Shown piece by piece: positions 27,758 through 54,150 of a stretch of 64,000 nt of DNA. How positions within the stretch are numbered: position 1 is the first letter of the stretch; each line of letters begins with the position of its first letter. Source of the DNA: Gemmata palustris (GTDB lineage Bacteria; Planctomycetota; Planctomycetia; Gemmatales; Gemmataceae); assembly GCF_017939745.1 (NCBI RefSeq), contig NZ_JAGKQQ010000001.1:7765299-7829298 (forward strand). Direction: 5' to 3'. The translations under genes were made by a program, and so were the position numbers. Under the pieces are notes generated by a model that saw only the letters and a program-made list of their open reading frames with translations, did not search any database and had not been told where the DNA came from.

Positions 27758-27830
<73 letters not shown>

Positions 27831-30543: not shown

Positions 30544-30603
30544 CGCGGGCGCTCACTTTCTCGGCCGCTAATCCGATTTCGGTGCCATCGTAGCGAGCCG
30601 AAT

Positions 30604-30658
30604 GAGCCGCGACCGCTAGGGAGCGGGAGGCGCTACCGCTCCCTAGCGGTCGCGGCTC
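30604..30658. repeat. Perfect 23-bp palindromic repeat (GAGCCGCGACCGC family)
   Basis: Arms at 30604-30626 and 30636-30658 are exact reverse complements around a 9-base loop. The arm begins GAGCCGCGACCGCTAGGGAG. A second family member, differing by TA to AA in the arm, surrounds the IS at 58.9-60.2 kb, so this is a dispersed element. It could also terminate the dehydrogenase transcript at 30730. Confidence 0.9.
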
Positions 30659-30729
30659 GTTACGAAAAACTGCTCGGCCACCGTTGTTCCTTCGAGCCAC
30701 CTCGCGGGGCAGACCAAAGCCCGTTCCGC

Positions 30730-33107: not shown

Positions 33108-33244
33108 GCACAGGGCTCCCGCCCTGTGCTACGTAAGACGGCCCCTCCGGGGCGAAGACCAACACCTCGGCGAAGACATCAACCTTCAATGCCTTTCCGC
33201 CCCGGAGGGGCCGGCGTTTGTAGCACAGGGCGGAAGCCCTGTGC
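33108..33244. repeat. Nested inverted repeats
   Basis: The outer arms 33108-33132 and 33220-33244 (25 nt, one mismatch, GCACAGGGCT... / ...AGCCCTGTGC) are each themselves partly self-complementary. The inner arms 33139-33154 and 33198-33213 (CGGCCCCTCCGGGGCG) are perfect and also self-complementary. As RNA it could form a long double-armed structure. Spacer about 43 nt. Confidence 0.85.
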
Positions 33245-33329
33245 ATCTCCCACCCCGTGCGCCCTGAGCCTCCTTCTAATGGCAGAACTGGCTCGTGGGT
33301 GCGGGTTCGTGGACTTTTGGCGCGCGGTC

Positions 33330-33780
33330 CCACCTCGTTGTCCACCCTTGGCCATAGCGCAAATATGCGCTATGGCCAGCGCAAGTCCTTGTGGCGCAAC
33401 GACCGGTCACACCGGCCACCCTGGTCACACCCTTTTGGAAATCTCTGGTGCGCACCGACCACCATTCCGGGAAACCCACTGGTCTGCTGATCGCGGGGAG
33501 CAAATACTGGGCGCGTGGTTCCCGGTGTTGCCCTCATTACAAGAGGAAAACACATGATTCGCGATTAAGCACATCTTGTCGAATTGGTACATATAAGAAT
33601 GTTTGAGTTGACTGGAAGAAAAGTGACCCGAGTGGCCGGTTACCCATTTTCTATCGCGGTGTTTGCCGCCATAGAAAGGGTGTGACCAGGGTGGCCGGTG
33701 TGACCAGTCGTTGCGCCACAAGGACTTGCGCTGGCCATAGCGCAAATATGCGCTATGGCCAAGGGTGGACAACGAGGTGG
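33330..33780. repeat. 106-bp inverted repeats flanking a 239-bp spacer
   Basis: 33330-33435 is the reverse complement of 33675-33780 with about three differences. Each arm contains its own palindrome, GGCCATAGCGCA-AATA/ATAT-TGCGCTATGGCC. Two of the differences fall in that palindrome's loop. The spacer carries no reading frame, is AT-richer in its middle (about 33540-33610), and includes a further degenerate copy of GTGACC-n-GGTGGCCGG at about 33623. The layout suits a MITE-like cassette, an inverted duplication or a structured RNA. Confidence 0.85.
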
Positions 33781-34185
33781 AGCCGCGATCATCCGAAACT
33801 CAAAGTGGCCGCGCCAGTCGCAGTGCCCGGTGTGCTCTTTTGACACAGGAGGCTGTGCTAGTTAGGCGCTGCGGTCCCAGGAAGCACGCGGCGCGCCCGA
33901 CACAGCGATCGGCACGGTCGGGTTTTGGGATCGGTCACGCACCGGTGGTGGCCGGCGGATGTTGCACGAGTGCCCCCTCCCCAGATTATACTCGACATGA
34001 GCGAATGTTCAAAAACTGCGATCCGTAAATTTACTGAGCTGAAAATTTGCTGGCCCTTAATTTGCAAATTACAATGTGAATGATTCGATCCTTCATCTTG
34101 ATTCGAGAATCCAATTTCCCTTCCCTCCTATCGAATAATGACATGGGGTGGTGTGCAACCCGCCCCAGAAAGGGGAATCGCTCTG

Positions 34186-38223: not shown

Positions 38224-39930
38224 TCACTTCACGCGCTCGAACATCACCGCGCGCTTTCCGCGACTCACCTCGCGCCACTTCCCGGGCGCGCCGAGCAGGT
38301 ACAGCTCGATCGGCGGCTTGTCCTGGGCCGGCGGGTTGGTCATCACGATCGCGCGCTCGAACTGGTACTTCGCGGCCCACCCTTCAAACACCAAGCCGAG
38401 TTCTTCGGGCGGCTTCCCGAGCGTGTCCGAATAGTTCTTGATCCACGAATCGCCGTACAACTCGCACCGGTCGTCCATGAAGATTTTCAGGTTCGGCGTG
38501 TGGTAGATGAGGTACCCGCCGAGGTTCGCATCATTGAAAATCGGCGTCCCCAGCGGCACGCGGGCCGCGTACTCGGTGACGTCCGTCGTCATGTCCGACG
38601 GGATAAAGTCCGGGTCGAGCCGCGCCCACCCGTGCCCGATTACCGGCACCTCGATCTGCTTCACTTGCAGCGTGAACGCGACCGCGACCAGCACCGCCGG
38701 AATCGCGAAGCCGGCCCACATGGGACTGCTGCGGTTCGCGACTTCGGCGGGGTTCTCGGCGTCCCACGCGGTCGAGCCGTCGCCGTGCTTAATGAGGAGC
38801 CGGTGCCAGATCGTGTGCTTCCACAAATCTGTGAGTGCGACCCCCGCGCACACCGCGAACAGCGGCCCCTGTCGGATGCCCTTGAAGCTCAGTGCGAACC
38901 ACACGAGCGGAACGAGCCACGACACGCGGGGCACTTTCGGAAGCGTCCCCGCGAGCATCACGATGTAGAACGCGCCCAACCCGATCACCGCGAGCCCGAG
39001 CGCCGAGGACGGGTCCATCGGCATGTGTTCGTTGATGACTTCCGGTAGCACCTTCGACCCGACAATGCGCTGCCAGATGCGGATCATTTCCAGGCCGTGC
39101 GGGTTCACCAGCGGCGTCAGCCCGCACGCGATCACGATGCCCACGAGCAGGAACGCGGTCCGCCAGGACCGAATGGGGGAGCATGGCATCAGTTCGCGCG
39201 CGGTCACAATGGTACCAAGGAGTGCAGCGCGCCAGGAGCGAATAGGCGAACGGCCGGCGTGAGCCGGCTGGTGAGGGGTACGGGTGTCAGTTGGTGTGGA
39301 TTTTTCACCAGCCGGCTCACGCCGGCCGTTCGCCAGAAATAGCAGCCCCCATCCCGCAACAGCCAGTCCCAGCGTCATCGTGCCACCGAGTACGCCGCCG
39401 TGGAGGTTCACCCACAGGACGTACAGCGGAATCAGCCCCGCGAGGCGCCAGGCCGTGCAGCGCTCGCGCTCGAAGTCGATGACGCACATCATCGTCCAGC
39501 CGAGGAACGCGATCGTGAACATGTGCGGGCGGACGAAGTAGTGGAACGCGCCGACGAACAGCACACCGCCCACGACCACGCCCGCGAGAATCGGTCCCAT
39601 CCCGCCTTGCACCGCGCGCCGAAAGATGAGCGTGAACAGCAGCGCGACACCGGTCGCGAAACCGAGGAGCATTGCGTCGAACCCACCGACGCGGTGCGCG
39701 AGCGCCATCAGCACTTCCGCGCCCCACTGCTGCGGCACCCAGCGCTCGCCCTCGAACGTGTAGCTGAATGGGTCCGTTTGCGGCATCCCGCGGTCGAGGA
39801 TGATCTCGCCCACCTTGACGTGCCACAGCGCACCGGGGTCGTAGAACCCGCGGTCGCGGAACGCGACCATCAGGCCCAGCCAGGTGAGCAGGAAGAACAC
39901 CGTTTCGGGCCGAAACAATCGACGCAGCAT
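38224..39930 (-). CDS. Polytopic membrane protein carrying an in-frame palindromic insert
   Basis: 568 residues from ATG 39930 (MLRRLFRPETVFFLLTWLGL). It has about ten to eleven membrane helices, an N-terminal loop with DPGALWHVKVGEIILDRGMP and TDPFSYTFEGERWVPQQWGA, and a large C-terminal domain (FNDANLGGYLIYHTPNLKIF, MDDRCELYGDSW). The layout resembles planctomycete glycosyltransferase-like or O-antigen-ligase-like membrane proteins, but I see no decisive motif. Residues around 199-255 (LANGRREPAGEKSTPTDTRT, then two SPIRSWR repeats) do not look like the rest. They coincide with a perfect 30-bp inverted repeat and a short direct repeat, and I regard them as inserted repetitive DNA that kept the frame. 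Confidence 0.75.
   Translation of the reverse strand: MLRRLFRPETVFFLLTWLGLMVAFRDRGFYDPGALWHVKVGEIILDRGMPQTDPFSYTFEGERWVPQQWGAEVLMALAHRVGGFDAMLLGFATGVALLFTLIFRRAVQGGMGPILAGVVVGGVLFVGAFHYFVRPHMFTIAFLGWTMMCVIDFERERCTAWRLAGLIPLYVLWVNLHGGVLGGTMTLGLAVAGWGLLFLANGRREPAGEKSTPTDTRTPHQPAHAGRSPIRSWRAALLGTIVTARELMPCSPIRSWRTAFLLVGIVIACGLTPLVNPHGLEMIRIWQRIVGSKVLPEVINEHMPMDPSSALGLAVIGLGAFYIVMLAGTLPKVPRVSWLVPLVWFALSFKGIRQGPLFAVCAGVALTDLWKHTIWHRLLIKHGDGSTAWDAENPAEVANRSSPMWAGFAIPAVLVAVAFTLQVKQIEVPVIGHGWARLDPDFIPSDMTTDVTEYAARVPLGTPIFNDANLGGYLIYHTPNLKIFMDDRCELYGDSWIKNYSDTLGKPPEELGLVFEGWAAKYQFERAIVMTNPPAQDKPPIELYLLGAPGKWREVSRGKRAVMFERVK
39245..39334. repeat. Palindromic element inserted in frame (30-bp arms)
   Basis: Arms at 39245-39274 (GGCGAACGGCCGGCGTGAGC and onward) and 39305-39334 are perfect reverse complements with a 30-base loop. 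Total 90 bp, exactly 30 codons. On the coding strand it reads ANGRREPAGEKSTPTDTRTP then HQPAHAGRS. The same sequence type interrupts the kinase gene at 53097-53175. Confidence 0.92.
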
Positions 39931-51628: not shown

Positions 51629-52111
51629 GTGCTCGTTTACGAATCCGCCGACCAACTGCTCGCCGAACCGGACGCCCGCCGGTTCCTGCACGTCGTCCTC
51701 CTGAACGCGATCCGCGACAAGGCCACGCAGCTCGAAGTGCGGTTCGGCGAAGAGGGCGGGCTGCTCTACTACCGCGTGGACGGGCGCGACTGGGAACTCG
51801 CGCCGCCCTCCGACGATGTGTACCCGCTCCTCAAAGACACCGTGCGCGACGCGGCCCAGCTCGTATCGCCCGAGCGCCCGGACCTCACGGTGATCGCGGG
51901 CATCCCCGGCGCGCGCTACGAGCCGCTCGAAGCGGGATGGCTCACGTACCAGCTCGGCGGGCGCTGGATCGACCTCGCGGTGCGCATCGACCCGCGCGAG
52001 CCCTACGGCTTCATCCGGTTCGACATCGACGACCCCGCCGACTTCACCGACGCGGCCGGCGAAGCCCTCGCCGAGTACGCCATGCGATTGACTGCGGAAG
52101 AGGACCAGTGA
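51629..52111 (+). CDS. Small hypothetical protein, operon with ECF sigma
   Basis: 160 residues from GTG 51629 (VLVYESADQLLAEPDARRFL). The upstream frame is open but in the shadow of the preceding gene. The sequence is soluble and acidic: LEVRFGEEGGLLYYRVDGRD, LVSPERPDLTVIAGIPGARY, FDIDDPADFTDAAGEALAEY. The first part recalls the N-terminal region of type IV pilus/secretion ATPases (GspE-like DxRYR...DG), but no ATPase domain follows. Its 3' quarter is duplicated directly downstream. Confidence 0.65.
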   Translation: MLVYESADQLLAEPDARRFLHVVLLNAIRDKATQLEVRFGEEGGLLYYRVDGRDWELAPPSDDVYPLLKDTVRDAAQLVSPERPDLTVIAGIPGARYEPLEAGWLTYQLGGRWIDLAVRIDPREPYGFIRFDIDDPADFTDAAGEALAEYAMRLTAEEDQ

Positions 52112-52186
52112 ACCCCGCCCGCAAGGGCGGTGGGTTCTTTGGCGGTGCAACCGCCCTTGCGGGCGGGCCCCGTTCGGCTGGATCGA

Positions 52187-52318
52187 CCTCGCGGTGCGCA
52201 TCGACCCGCGCGAGGCTTCATCCGGTTCGACATCGACGACCCCGCCGACTTCACCGACGCGGCCGGCGAAGCCCTCGCCGAGTACGCCATGCGATTGACT
52301 GCGGAAGAGGACCAGTGA
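52187..52318 (+). pseudogene. Duplicated 3' end of the 51629 gene
   Basis: This copy encodes FIRFDIDDPADFTDAAGEAL and AEYAMRLTAEEDQ with the same stop, after a 7-base deletion relative to the parent at 51965-52111. It lacks a start site and the first 110 residues. A by-product of the tandem duplication. Confidence 0.8.
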
Positions 52319-52384
52319 ACCCCGCCCGCAAGGGCGGTGGGTTCTTTGGCGGTGCAACCCACCGCCCTTGCGGGCGGGGTTCAC
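52315..52384. repeat. Perfect 29-bp palindrome GTGAACCCCGCCCGCAAGGG
   Basis: Arms at 52315-52343 and 52356-52384 with a 12-base loop, starting at the stop codon of the duplicated gene end and ending 27 bp before the kinase start. A shorter form (right arm truncated) occurs at about 52108-52166, and related arms lie at 54170-54251. It may also act as a terminator or attenuator in front of the kinase. Confidence 0.88.
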
Positions 52385-52410: not shown

Positions 52411-54150
52411 ATGACCCACGACCGTGACGAGCAACTGGCCGCCCTCATTGACCGGCTCGCGGGTGACCAGCGCGCCGGCCGCGTCGCCGATGTCGAGGCC
52501 GCGGCGCGTGACCACCCAGACCTCGCGGCGGAACTGCGCGAGTTGTGGGCCGTTGCGCAGTTCGCGTACATGGCCCGCCCGCCGCAACCGGCTGCCCCGC
52601 CGACTATTACGATCGCACGAGCCGGGCCACTCACGCCGTCGCTCGCCACCGATCACACCGCACATACGGCTGCCGCGCTCCCGCGCGACTTCGGCGATTT
52701 CGAGTTACTCGAAGAGGTCGGGCGCGGCGGGATGGGGGTCGTGTATCGGGCGCGGCAGAAGAGCCTGGACCGCGTCGTTGCGCTGAAGATGGTGCGCGAG
52801 GCGCACCTCGCGACCGACGCCGACCGCGCGCGGTTCCGCACCGAGGCCGAGTCCGCGGCGCGCCTCAAACACCCGAACATCGTGACGGTGCATGAGGTCG
52901 GCTCGGCCGGCGGACAAGCGTACCTCTGCATGGAGTTCGTCGGTGGCCAGACGCTCGCGGAGAAGGTCCGCACGGACGGCCCGCTCCCGCCCCGCGAGGC
53001 CGCTCGACTCGTCGCGGTGATCGCGCGTGCCGTTGAGCACGCGCACGCATTTGGGATCATTCACCGCGATCTGAAACCGTCGAACATTCTCCTTTTGGCG
53101 AACGGCCGGTGTGAGCCGGCCGGTGAATCCGGTGCGCGGCCCGACCCCTCTTCGCTCTCACACCGGCCCTTCGCCCTCGAACCCAAAGTCTCCGACTTCG
53201 GCCTCGCGAAGAAGATCGACAACTCGGAGAGCCTCACGCGGACCGGGGCCGTGGTCGGCACGCCGAGCTACATGTCGCCCGAACAGGCCGCGGGGCGGAA
53301 AGACCTTACCCCCACCGCGGACGTGTACGCGCTCGGGGCGATCCTGTACGAACTGCTCACGGGCCGGCCACCGTTCCAGGCCGCGCACCCGGTCGATACG
53401 CTGTTGCTCGTGCTCGAACAGGAGCCGGTTCCGCCGCGCCACCTGAACGCGACCGTGGACCGCGAACTCGAACTCATCTGCCTGAAGTGCCTCCAGAAGC
53501 CCGCGACGATGCGGTACCCGTCCGCCGGGGCGCTTGCCGCGGACCTCGAGGCCTACGCTGCCGGTCAGCCGGTCGCCGCGGCGCCGAGCGGGCTGCGGTT
53601 CTTCATCGCGCGCCTGTTCCGCGAAACGCACCACGCCGACATACTCGAAAATTGGGGCAAACTGTGGATCTTCCACAGCGTGATGATCTTCCTGCTGTGC
53701 CTGCTCACGCAGGTCATGAGCTGGTACGGTCTGCACGATCACGTCTGGTACATGAGCGTGTGGTCCGTGGGGCTGGTGGCGTGGGGCGCAACGTTGTGGC
53801 AACTGCGCAAGGCGGCCGGCCCGGTGCTGTTCGTGGAACGGCAGATCGCACACGCATGGGCGGCCGGGGTGTGCGCCAGCATCGCCATGTTCTGGATCGA
53901 GTGGCTCATACCGCTCAAAGCTCTGACGCTCTCGCCGGCGGTGGCGGTCGCGGCCGGGATGGTGATGGTGTTCAAGGCGGGCATTCTCTCCGGCCGGTTC
54001 TACGGCTGGGCCGCGCTGAACTTCATCGCGGCCATCGTCATGCCGCTGGTGCCCGGCGTGAGCATCCTTCTGTTCGGGGCGGTGTCGGCGCTGTCGTTCT
54101 TCGTGCCCGGGGTGAAGTATTACCGCCAGCGGAAGGCCCGGATCGCATAG
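52411..54150 (+). CDS. Membrane Ser/Thr protein kinase with palindromic insert
   Basis: 579 residues. The N-terminal 90 residues are a helical leader typical of planctomycete kinases. The kinase domain covers about 95-390: GRGGMG loop (104-109), Lys in VALKMV (126), catalytic HRDLKPSN (218-225), SDFGLAKK (DFG 262-264), and PSYMSPEQAAGR. Between ILL and EPKVSDFG it carries about 27 extra residues (LANGRCEPAGESGARPDPSS, then LSHRPFA) encoded by a palindromic repeat. This is the stretch between catalytic loop and DFG, where kinases normally have about 5-10 residues. Five membrane helices follow (about 420-570). It likely signals with the ECF sigma operon upstream. Confidence 0.9.
   Translation: MTHDRDEQLAALIDRLAGDQRAGRVADVEAAARDHPDLAAELRELWAVAQFAYMARPPQPAAPPTITIARAGPLTPSLATDHTAHTAAALPRDFGDFELLEEVGRGGMGVVYRARQKSLDRVVALKMVREAHLATDADRARFRTEAESAARLKHPNIVTVHEVGSAGGQAYLCMEFVGGQTLAEKVRTDGPLPPREAARLVAVIARAVEHAHAFGIIHRDLKPSNILLLANGRCEPAGESGARPDPSSLSHRPFALEPKVSDFGLAKKIDNSESLTRTGAVVGTPSYMSPEQAAGRKDLTPTADVYALGAILYELLTGRPPFQAAHPVDTLLLVLEQEPVPPRHLNATVDRELELICLKCLQKPATMRYPSAGALAADLEAYAAGQPVAAAPSGLRFFIARLFRETHHADILENWGKLWIFHSVMIFLLCLLTQVMSWYGLHDHVWYMSVWSVGLVAWGATLWQLRKAAGPVLFVERQIAHAWAAGVCASIAMFWIEWLIPLKALTLSPAVAVAAGMVMVFKAGILSGRFYGWAALNFIAAIVMPLVPGVSILLFGAVSALSFFVPGVKYYRQRKARIA
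53097..53175. repeat. Palindromic element inserted in frame in a kinase gene
   Basis: GGCGAACGGCCGGTGTGAG (53097-53115) pairs with CTCACACCGGCCCTTCGCC (53157-53175) with one mismatch. The left arm equals the left arm of the element at 39245 except for one base over 19. On the coding strand both encode LANGRxEPAGE in the same phase, though the two host proteins are unrelated. Confidence 0.9.

Follow-up and report, generated by a model that had tools for sequence, protein, structure and literature searches.

Rickettsia palindromic elements (RPE) are palindromes translated in frame within unrelated proteins, and we know of no transposase tied to them. REPs that lie within genes are usually taken as accidents. 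In the sections of PMC3733652 that deal with REPs, REPtrons and TIRtrons, paired palindromes are mainly intergenic, though a number of ORFs, uvrA and recB among them, contain some; TIR families are cognate to Y1 genes, and two Xanthomonas species show differing REPs at approximately one recB site. The part of PMC6006769 devoted to the class 3 TnpA_Y1 transposases places Planctomycetes among their main hosts and describes high-copy REP-like structures around the gene. Judging from these sections of PMC3733652 and PMC6006769, REPs inside genes, TIR families paired with their cognate Y1 genes and differing REPs at about one recB site have already been published. Furthermore, the passages of PMC6649704 on Nematomorpha mitochondria describe inverted repeats within working protein genes, whose arms encode conserved protein. 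No report of a kinase slot with palindromes was found in the open-access papers searched.

The window, which is the whole 64-kb stretch of Gemmata palustris DNA analysed here, contains a gene encoding a PknB-like Ser/Thr kinase (52411..54150, + strand; Pkinase 1.2e-50) of 579 amino acid residues, with C-terminal helices predicted by a low-confidence model. Between its HRDLKPSN catalytic-loop codons (53062..53085, + strand) and the DFG codons (53194..53202, + strand) lies a palindromic element of the GGCGAAC family at 53097-53175, exactly where the first-pass annotation had placed it. The element shows an intact left arm of 30 nt (53097..53126, + strand) translated as ANGRCEPAGE, an inter-arm spacer (53127..53156, + strand) that includes the site of the missing inner part of the right arm, and a right-arm remnant (53157..53175, + strand) of which 19 outer nt survive, a single one mismatched, and which is translated as SHRPFA; the missing inner part amounts to 11 nt. 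The kinase insert is best read as a REP/REPIN-like element that has partly decayed. Upstream of it, at 52007-52382, two 169-nt copies, 94% alike, repeat the end of the gene preceding the kinase and its palindrome.

Alignment with PknB (1mru) sets kinase residues 232-258 against PknB residues 153-155, that is 27 against 3 and 24 net, in agreement with the 27 extra residues between HRD and DFG of the annotation, and places the insert between NILL and PKVSDFG, with the kinase motifs intact on either side. In terms of the kinase fold, the turn between NILL and KVSDFG is the beta7-beta8 turn. An AlphaFold model, in which strands 226-228 and 258-260 flank a low-confidence loop, is poor (mean pLDDT 55, 13 sequences), therefore the placement leans on the PknB alignment, which supports the location in a surface loop that the annotation had offered as one possibility. 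At Rfam gathering scores the sole match in the window was a tRNA at 27758-27830, and the palindrome corresponds to no known structured RNA.

The arm pattern, with up to three mismatches, gave 224 matches in the 9.23-Mb genome compared to 0 for the reversed pattern, which matched only at 8-9 mismatches. In the window, the same threshold returned 39245+, 39311- and 53097+, with 0.00 expected from 100 shuffles, and arm matches with up to two mismatches were found in 39 of the 95 genomes of the bacterial family. Each arm is itself a hairpin, composed of GGCGAAC, a GGCCGG stem, a TGTGAG loop, a CCGGCC stem and GGTGA. The arrangement of the arms was studied in an own-genome sample of 117 stretches, which covers 0.90 of the 9.23 Mb; of the 226 sites with an exact 14-mer match, 216 lie in it. 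With up to eight mismatches, this sample contains 135 arm groups: 77 are simple +- pairs, none is a simple -+ pair and 45 are single arms. Spacers between paired arms range between 3 and 232 nt. Within a pair, both arms have the same letter at the variable positions 14, 17, and 25 in 70, 71, and 65 of 80 pairs, respectively. Only six of the 36 spacers of at least 50 nt enclose another palindrome (L162, L185, L201, L209, L223 and L238), so nesting is not the rule. The GGCGAAC family is thus REP-like: a short self-complementary unit, in high copy and arranged in inverted pairs.

The family is mostly extragenic. In the same sample, four of 128 arm groups (up to seven mismatches) are flanked by coding sequence and keep its frame. 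Two of them belong to the window and a third to contig 2, and the fourth is a single arm within a glnE-like gene. The remaining 124 groups were sorted by codon scores only, not one by one, and 33 of them, which lie between same-strand coding flanks with a stop or a shift, were taken as intergenic. The repeated insertion into unrelated genes that the annotation proposed is true, but at this rate it is rare. Palindromes of any kind are in frame in six of 197 cases in 0.97 Mb of the genome, one of the six being probably native sequence, and in 12 of 225 cases in 1.0 Mb of related loci, a set partly chosen for kinases, in which seven of the 12 lie in the kinase slot. The glnE-like gene (L196; G000:C1:6743374-6743499 and 6744378-6744407) contains an in-frame palindrome of heptamer units in addition to its single GGCGAAC arm.

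The second in-frame copy of the window (39245..39334, - strand) has two 30-nt arms, 100% complementary, separated by a 30-nt spacer, and is translated as LANGRREPAGE...HQPAHAGRSP. Its host gene (38224..39930, - strand) is membrane-protein-like by reading; it gave no match with Pfam at E 0.01, and no orthologue of it was found in 20 stretches holding or adjoining the kinase. As the annotation had pointed out, LANGRCEPAGE of the kinase and LANGRREPAGE of this gene are read in a common phase, and its question of whether all genic copies use one phase can be answered for seven genes in which the left arm is read in the sense direction. Three of these belong to this genome; the others are the G044 and G025 kinases, a uvrA-like gene (L260) and a sensor-kinase-like gene (L433), the last two named from their translations. 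All seven use phase 1 (ANGRREPAGE, ASGGREPPE and alike). In six of the seven cases, phase 0 runs into a stop within the portion of the arm that is translated, and phase 2 is open in all seven and used in none; across the three arm types compared, the phase 1 peptide is more hydrophilic than that of phase 2. Since three of the seven cases share the kinase site, there are five distinct sites, and with two open phases such agreement would arise by chance in about 6% of cases, which makes it weakly significant. Selection against disruptive phases would be enough to explain the single phase. The common phase claimed in the annotation is thus supported at this level of significance, and no peptide-coding purpose of the element was seen. 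A palindrome in L263, considered as a case in another phase, does not have the GCGA end and was not counted. In L260 (723-862), which comes from another genome of the bacterial family, the in-frame palindrome of the uvrA-like gene is of the GCGA type, and a second palindrome-like stretch was seen by eye near the start of the frame.

Comparison of an element-rich stretch with its relatives brought to light the cognate transposase, an HUH/Y1 gene (C1:7130204-7130773) enclosed by the same arms, two to the left and one to the right of its ORF (arms and ORF together, C1:7129975-7130821). Its NHIH and YVSSQ motifs are predicted to provide the HUH and catalytic Tyr roles. The protein matches NCBIfam REP_Tyr_transpos at 1e-10 and 41.7 bits, below the curated cut-off of 80, so that under the NCBIfam RAYT model it was filed as a relative rather than as an equivalog; with Pfam Y1_Tnp it scores 21 bits, just under the cut-off of 23. 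Its sequence matches in PDB (SAKe designs, RbBP5) were taken as spurious. Relatives of the transposase (E 1e-8) are present in 58 of the 95 genomes of the bacterial family, and YVxxQ is found in 19 of 19 aligned rows, which were selected for H-x-H, with 12 of 31 loci not picked up.

An inverted repeat lies across the gene in 25 of 29 testable transposase homologue loci compared to 0 of 24 kinase controls. This flank test was applied to the 30 best homologue loci, one of them with too little flank, and was used instead of a fixed repeat signature that was too strict (8 of 30 loci). Among the 25 flanking-repeat arms, 18 show GCGA(A/G)C and 22 show a (C/T)GTNAG loop, and a Y1 gene flanked by a GGCGAAC-type repeat is present in G013 and G027 besides this genome (G000). 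At the same intergenic site in seven relatives the GGCGAAC family is absent from the transposase locus, with 83-395 bp of other DNA instead. A dispersed family, a Y1 gene between its arms and the absence of that copy at the same site in seven relatives support the mobility suggested in the annotation, and, from sequence comparison, the HUH/Y1 transposase is very probably the mover of the GGCGAAC family, acting in trans. With the Pfam model, this genome yielded three further Y1 genes, which were considered as the mover; none has GGCGAAC arms, and they are also flanked by inverted repeats (scores 43, 32 and 28). The window contains two further palindrome families (33109-33243, 30601-30661 and 60186), whose arms bound the Y1 genes L091 and L093, as well as an inverted repeat (33323-33787) whose 113-nt arms are 96% complementary and lie 239 nt apart.

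The outward flank of the arms tends to T-Y-Y-R. A target duplication of at least 3 bp is absent as a rule, with a 3-bp match in one of 80 pairs; a 2-bp flank match occurs in 11 of the 80, and a 2-bp target duplication is possible. Inverted repeats around non-coding DNA, often of about 90 nt, would also be expected of an ordinary MITE of a DDE transposon; however, the near absence of target duplications of at least 3 bp, the palindromic nature of each arm and the Y1 transposase gene between arms make this origin hardly credible.

To follow the site of the kinase insert among relatives, one kinase was taken from each of 19 genomes of the genus (E 1e-150), and the loop was covered in 18 of them, G013 being the exception. 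The loop palindrome scored above all 200 codon shuffles in 13 of the 18 genus orthologues and in 19 of the 28 orthologues placed on the tree, G024 and G025 being scored through the records L311 and L302. The occupants of the slot differ. Within the genus, a GCGA-type REP is found in G000, G009 and G025, GGCAGTG units in G014, G022, G024 and G026, GTCGAAAG units in G015 and G017, GGAAxGC-like units in G012 and G019, GATGAAG in G018 and GCAGATT in G016. Outside the genus, G044 shows a near-perfect GGCGAAC element, G092 shows GTCGAAAG units, G087 and G051 show the GGAATGC type, G053 shows GTCGTCAA and G059 shows GAATGATG. Eight palindrome families or none are thus found in the slot among 28 kinase orthologues, with labels assigned by the analyst, those of G010 and G011 by a decayed arm only, and with similar heptamers lumped under GGAAxGC. 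Other kinases of the subfamily with the same long loop and no palindrome, which the annotation named as evidence against its reading, do exist within the genus: five of the 18 loops (G010, G011, G020, G021 and G023) are of like length and have no strong palindrome; on the other side are the 13 with a palindrome, mostly of other families. The slots of G010 and G011 look decayed, without repair, and those of G020, G021 and G023 show no palindrome. A strong palindrome is also absent in 18 of the 24 loops read outside the genus; 30 loci were put to the loop pattern, and L295 and L300 were not read by it.

A hairpin selected at this slot whatever its sequence, through a translation pause, mRNA stability or a DNA cruciform, with mobile elements being recruited to supply it, would account for a strong palindrome of differing families in 13 of 18 genus orthologues and for its restriction to the slot: a palindrome score of 17 is reached in the slot of 13 of 43 loci and in none of the 43 within 300 nt on either side, by an ungapped and stricter measure in which repeats of one orthologue are included. 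The rarity of in-frame palindromes elsewhere in the genome also speaks in its favor. However, we consider this reading unlikely in view of the long loops without a strong palindrome in the five genus members and in most of those outside the genus, the decay without repair in G010 and G011, and the loss of part of an arm in the window copy.

The loop of the genus orthologues ranges between 29 and 39 amino acids. As loops do not lengthen with each arrival, insertion alone is insufficient, and the old insert must go. When the slot labels were placed on the best tree of the 28 orthologues, built with the loop removed, 18 changes were counted compared to a mean of 18.7 for shuffled labels, and values as low were obtained in 78 of 200 shuffles. 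The label changes are close to those of shuffled labels, and the identity of the occupant therefore reflects descent only slightly at the scale of this tree, which omits G007, G071, G074 and L310 (no palindrome above shuffles) and other distant genomes and is hence palindrome-enriched. G009 and G010 are sisters on the loop-free gene tree (100/99) and their slots are wholly different. In the flanks, by contrast, identity reaches 92 and 88% over the 60 nt closest to the slot and 83-100% farther out.

This lack of clustering would also be produced by import of kinase alleles, the slot changing by recombination with the gene of another species, and several of nine pairs show a slight dip of identity over the first 60 nt on the downstream side (88% in G009/G010 against 92-100% beyond). 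Nevertheless, none of the nine pairs has a broad divergent tract around the slot, which leaves room for short tracts, and the loop-free tree keeps G009 and G010 together; allele import is accordingly quite improbable.

The slot families differ in how far they are dispersed in their carriers. GCGA arms are dispersed, in this genome with the 224 matches mentioned above and also in G009 and G044, and so are GGAATKC units, with 74 matches in G011, 40 in G051, some of them in the slot, and five in G087. GTCGTCAA has five matches in its carrier G053, three of which are the slot, and eight and nine in G092 and G044, respectively. Outside the slot, no copies of GGGCAGTG, GTCGAAAG, GATGAAG and GCAGATT were found in approximately 115, 35, 25 and 40 kb of carrier sequence, respectively; G016, however, has a GTCGAAAG-type palindrome in an intergenic position. 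Two slot families, GCGA and GGAATKC, thus have good support for insertion, which is assumed for the rest. An origin on the spot, in which a fragile sequence gives rise to palindromes through template switching or slippage and no insertion takes place, would fit the four families unseen outside the slot in 25-115 kb of their carriers, the 7-8-nt units of which several slot palindromes consist, and the arms of an element that match each other better than other copies. The clear dispersal of the GCGA and GGAATKC families in their carriers argues against it, the samples of the other carriers being small, and we judge such an origin to be of low probability.

Between slot families, the spacers resemble each other more closely than mononucleotide shuffles do (z 5.5, 0 of 500), a value in which coding composition and shared ancestry are uncontrolled and the borders were set partly by eye, and on which nothing is built here; the intergenic control gave 5.27 against 5.10 +- 0.06. 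In L206 (3490-11000) and its orthologous sites, three intergenic sites show differing long palindromes, by eye, in most relatives; the exceptions at one of them are G010, with the GGCGAAC family and an alike spacer, and G012 and G024, with a common palindrome.

Taken together, the kinase beta7-beta8 turn is probably a tolerated site that has been serially colonised by palindromic elements, the window copy being REP/REPIN-like and very probably Y1-spread. The element consists of two self-complementary units in inverted orientation, each made of GGCGAAC followed by two stem halves around a GTNAG loop, with a variable spacer between the units; it would be spread in trans by a REP-associated HUH/Y1 transposase, apparently closest to the class 3 TnpA_Y1 of Planctomycetes. 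It would have entered the turn that separates the catalytic loop from DFG, which seems to tolerate about 30 additional hydrophilic residues. The turn looks like a recurrent landing site, since related species show at the same codons other palindromes, each with an open frame: another REP, and palindromes of heptamer- or octamer-like units. The transposase link was found for the GCGA-type arms; for the heptamer and octamer families no transposase emerged. Transposition by this enzyme, and an insertion origin of the families seen only in the slot, are what the comparisons suggest.

In serial colonisation, the occupant of the slot would change faster than the kinase itself. Tolerance rather than benefit to the kinase and the loss of the previous insert are likewise inferred; of the readings of the slot, serial insertion into a tolerant loop is the simplest. 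How the old insert would be lost precisely, perhaps through single-strand Y1 chemistry, is a guess. Given how uncommon in-frame palindromes generally are, it is striking that a single kinase site has been used repeatedly. A more speculative idea, to which we give a doubtful place, is that the codons after NILL attract palindromes as such, a resident hairpin drawing in the next element, and that single-strand Y1 chemistry swaps hairpins at precise, frame-keeping borders; if true, hairpin-for-hairpin exchange would shape one protein loop across many species. One kinase loop has seemingly been filled, decayed and refilled by unrelated palindromes, with the surrounding enzyme conserved. The slot therefore offers a natural series on how mobile hairpins turn into protein sequence, which bears on whether Y1 enzymes target existing hairpins and on the frame-safe removal of an old insert.

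Among the known systems, the elements appear RPE-like in being in-frame palindromes in unrelated proteins, and differ in having a cognate Y1 gene. The transposase resembles the class 3 TnpA_Y1 of PMC6006769, as far as described in the part cited, in the NH-hydrophobic-H motif and the Y-V..Q motif near the end; however, the distance from Y to Q is one residue longer in the motif given there than in the enzyme here, and W[TA] is reported there where the enzyme here has WS. A CnGA foot is given for class 3; the elements here end in GGCGAAC/GGCGAGC with an outward TYYR. The commonest outward flank, TCCG (17 of 212), has the complement CGGA and is on the opposite side of the hairpin from the CnGA foot of PMC6006769. 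The intragenic slot is a feature of this system that is absent from the class 3 TnpA_Y1 account in those sections of PMC6006769. The REPs in the cited sections of PMC3733652 carry a GTAG or CGTC tag, whereas the GGCGAAC elements have neither and end in GGCGAAC and GGTGA, and eight families at one site within one bacterial family go beyond the cases given in those sections. Finally, in the coding palindromes of Nematomorpha, according to the passages of PMC6649704 cited, the arms encode conserved protein, whereas in this kinase they fill a variable loop.
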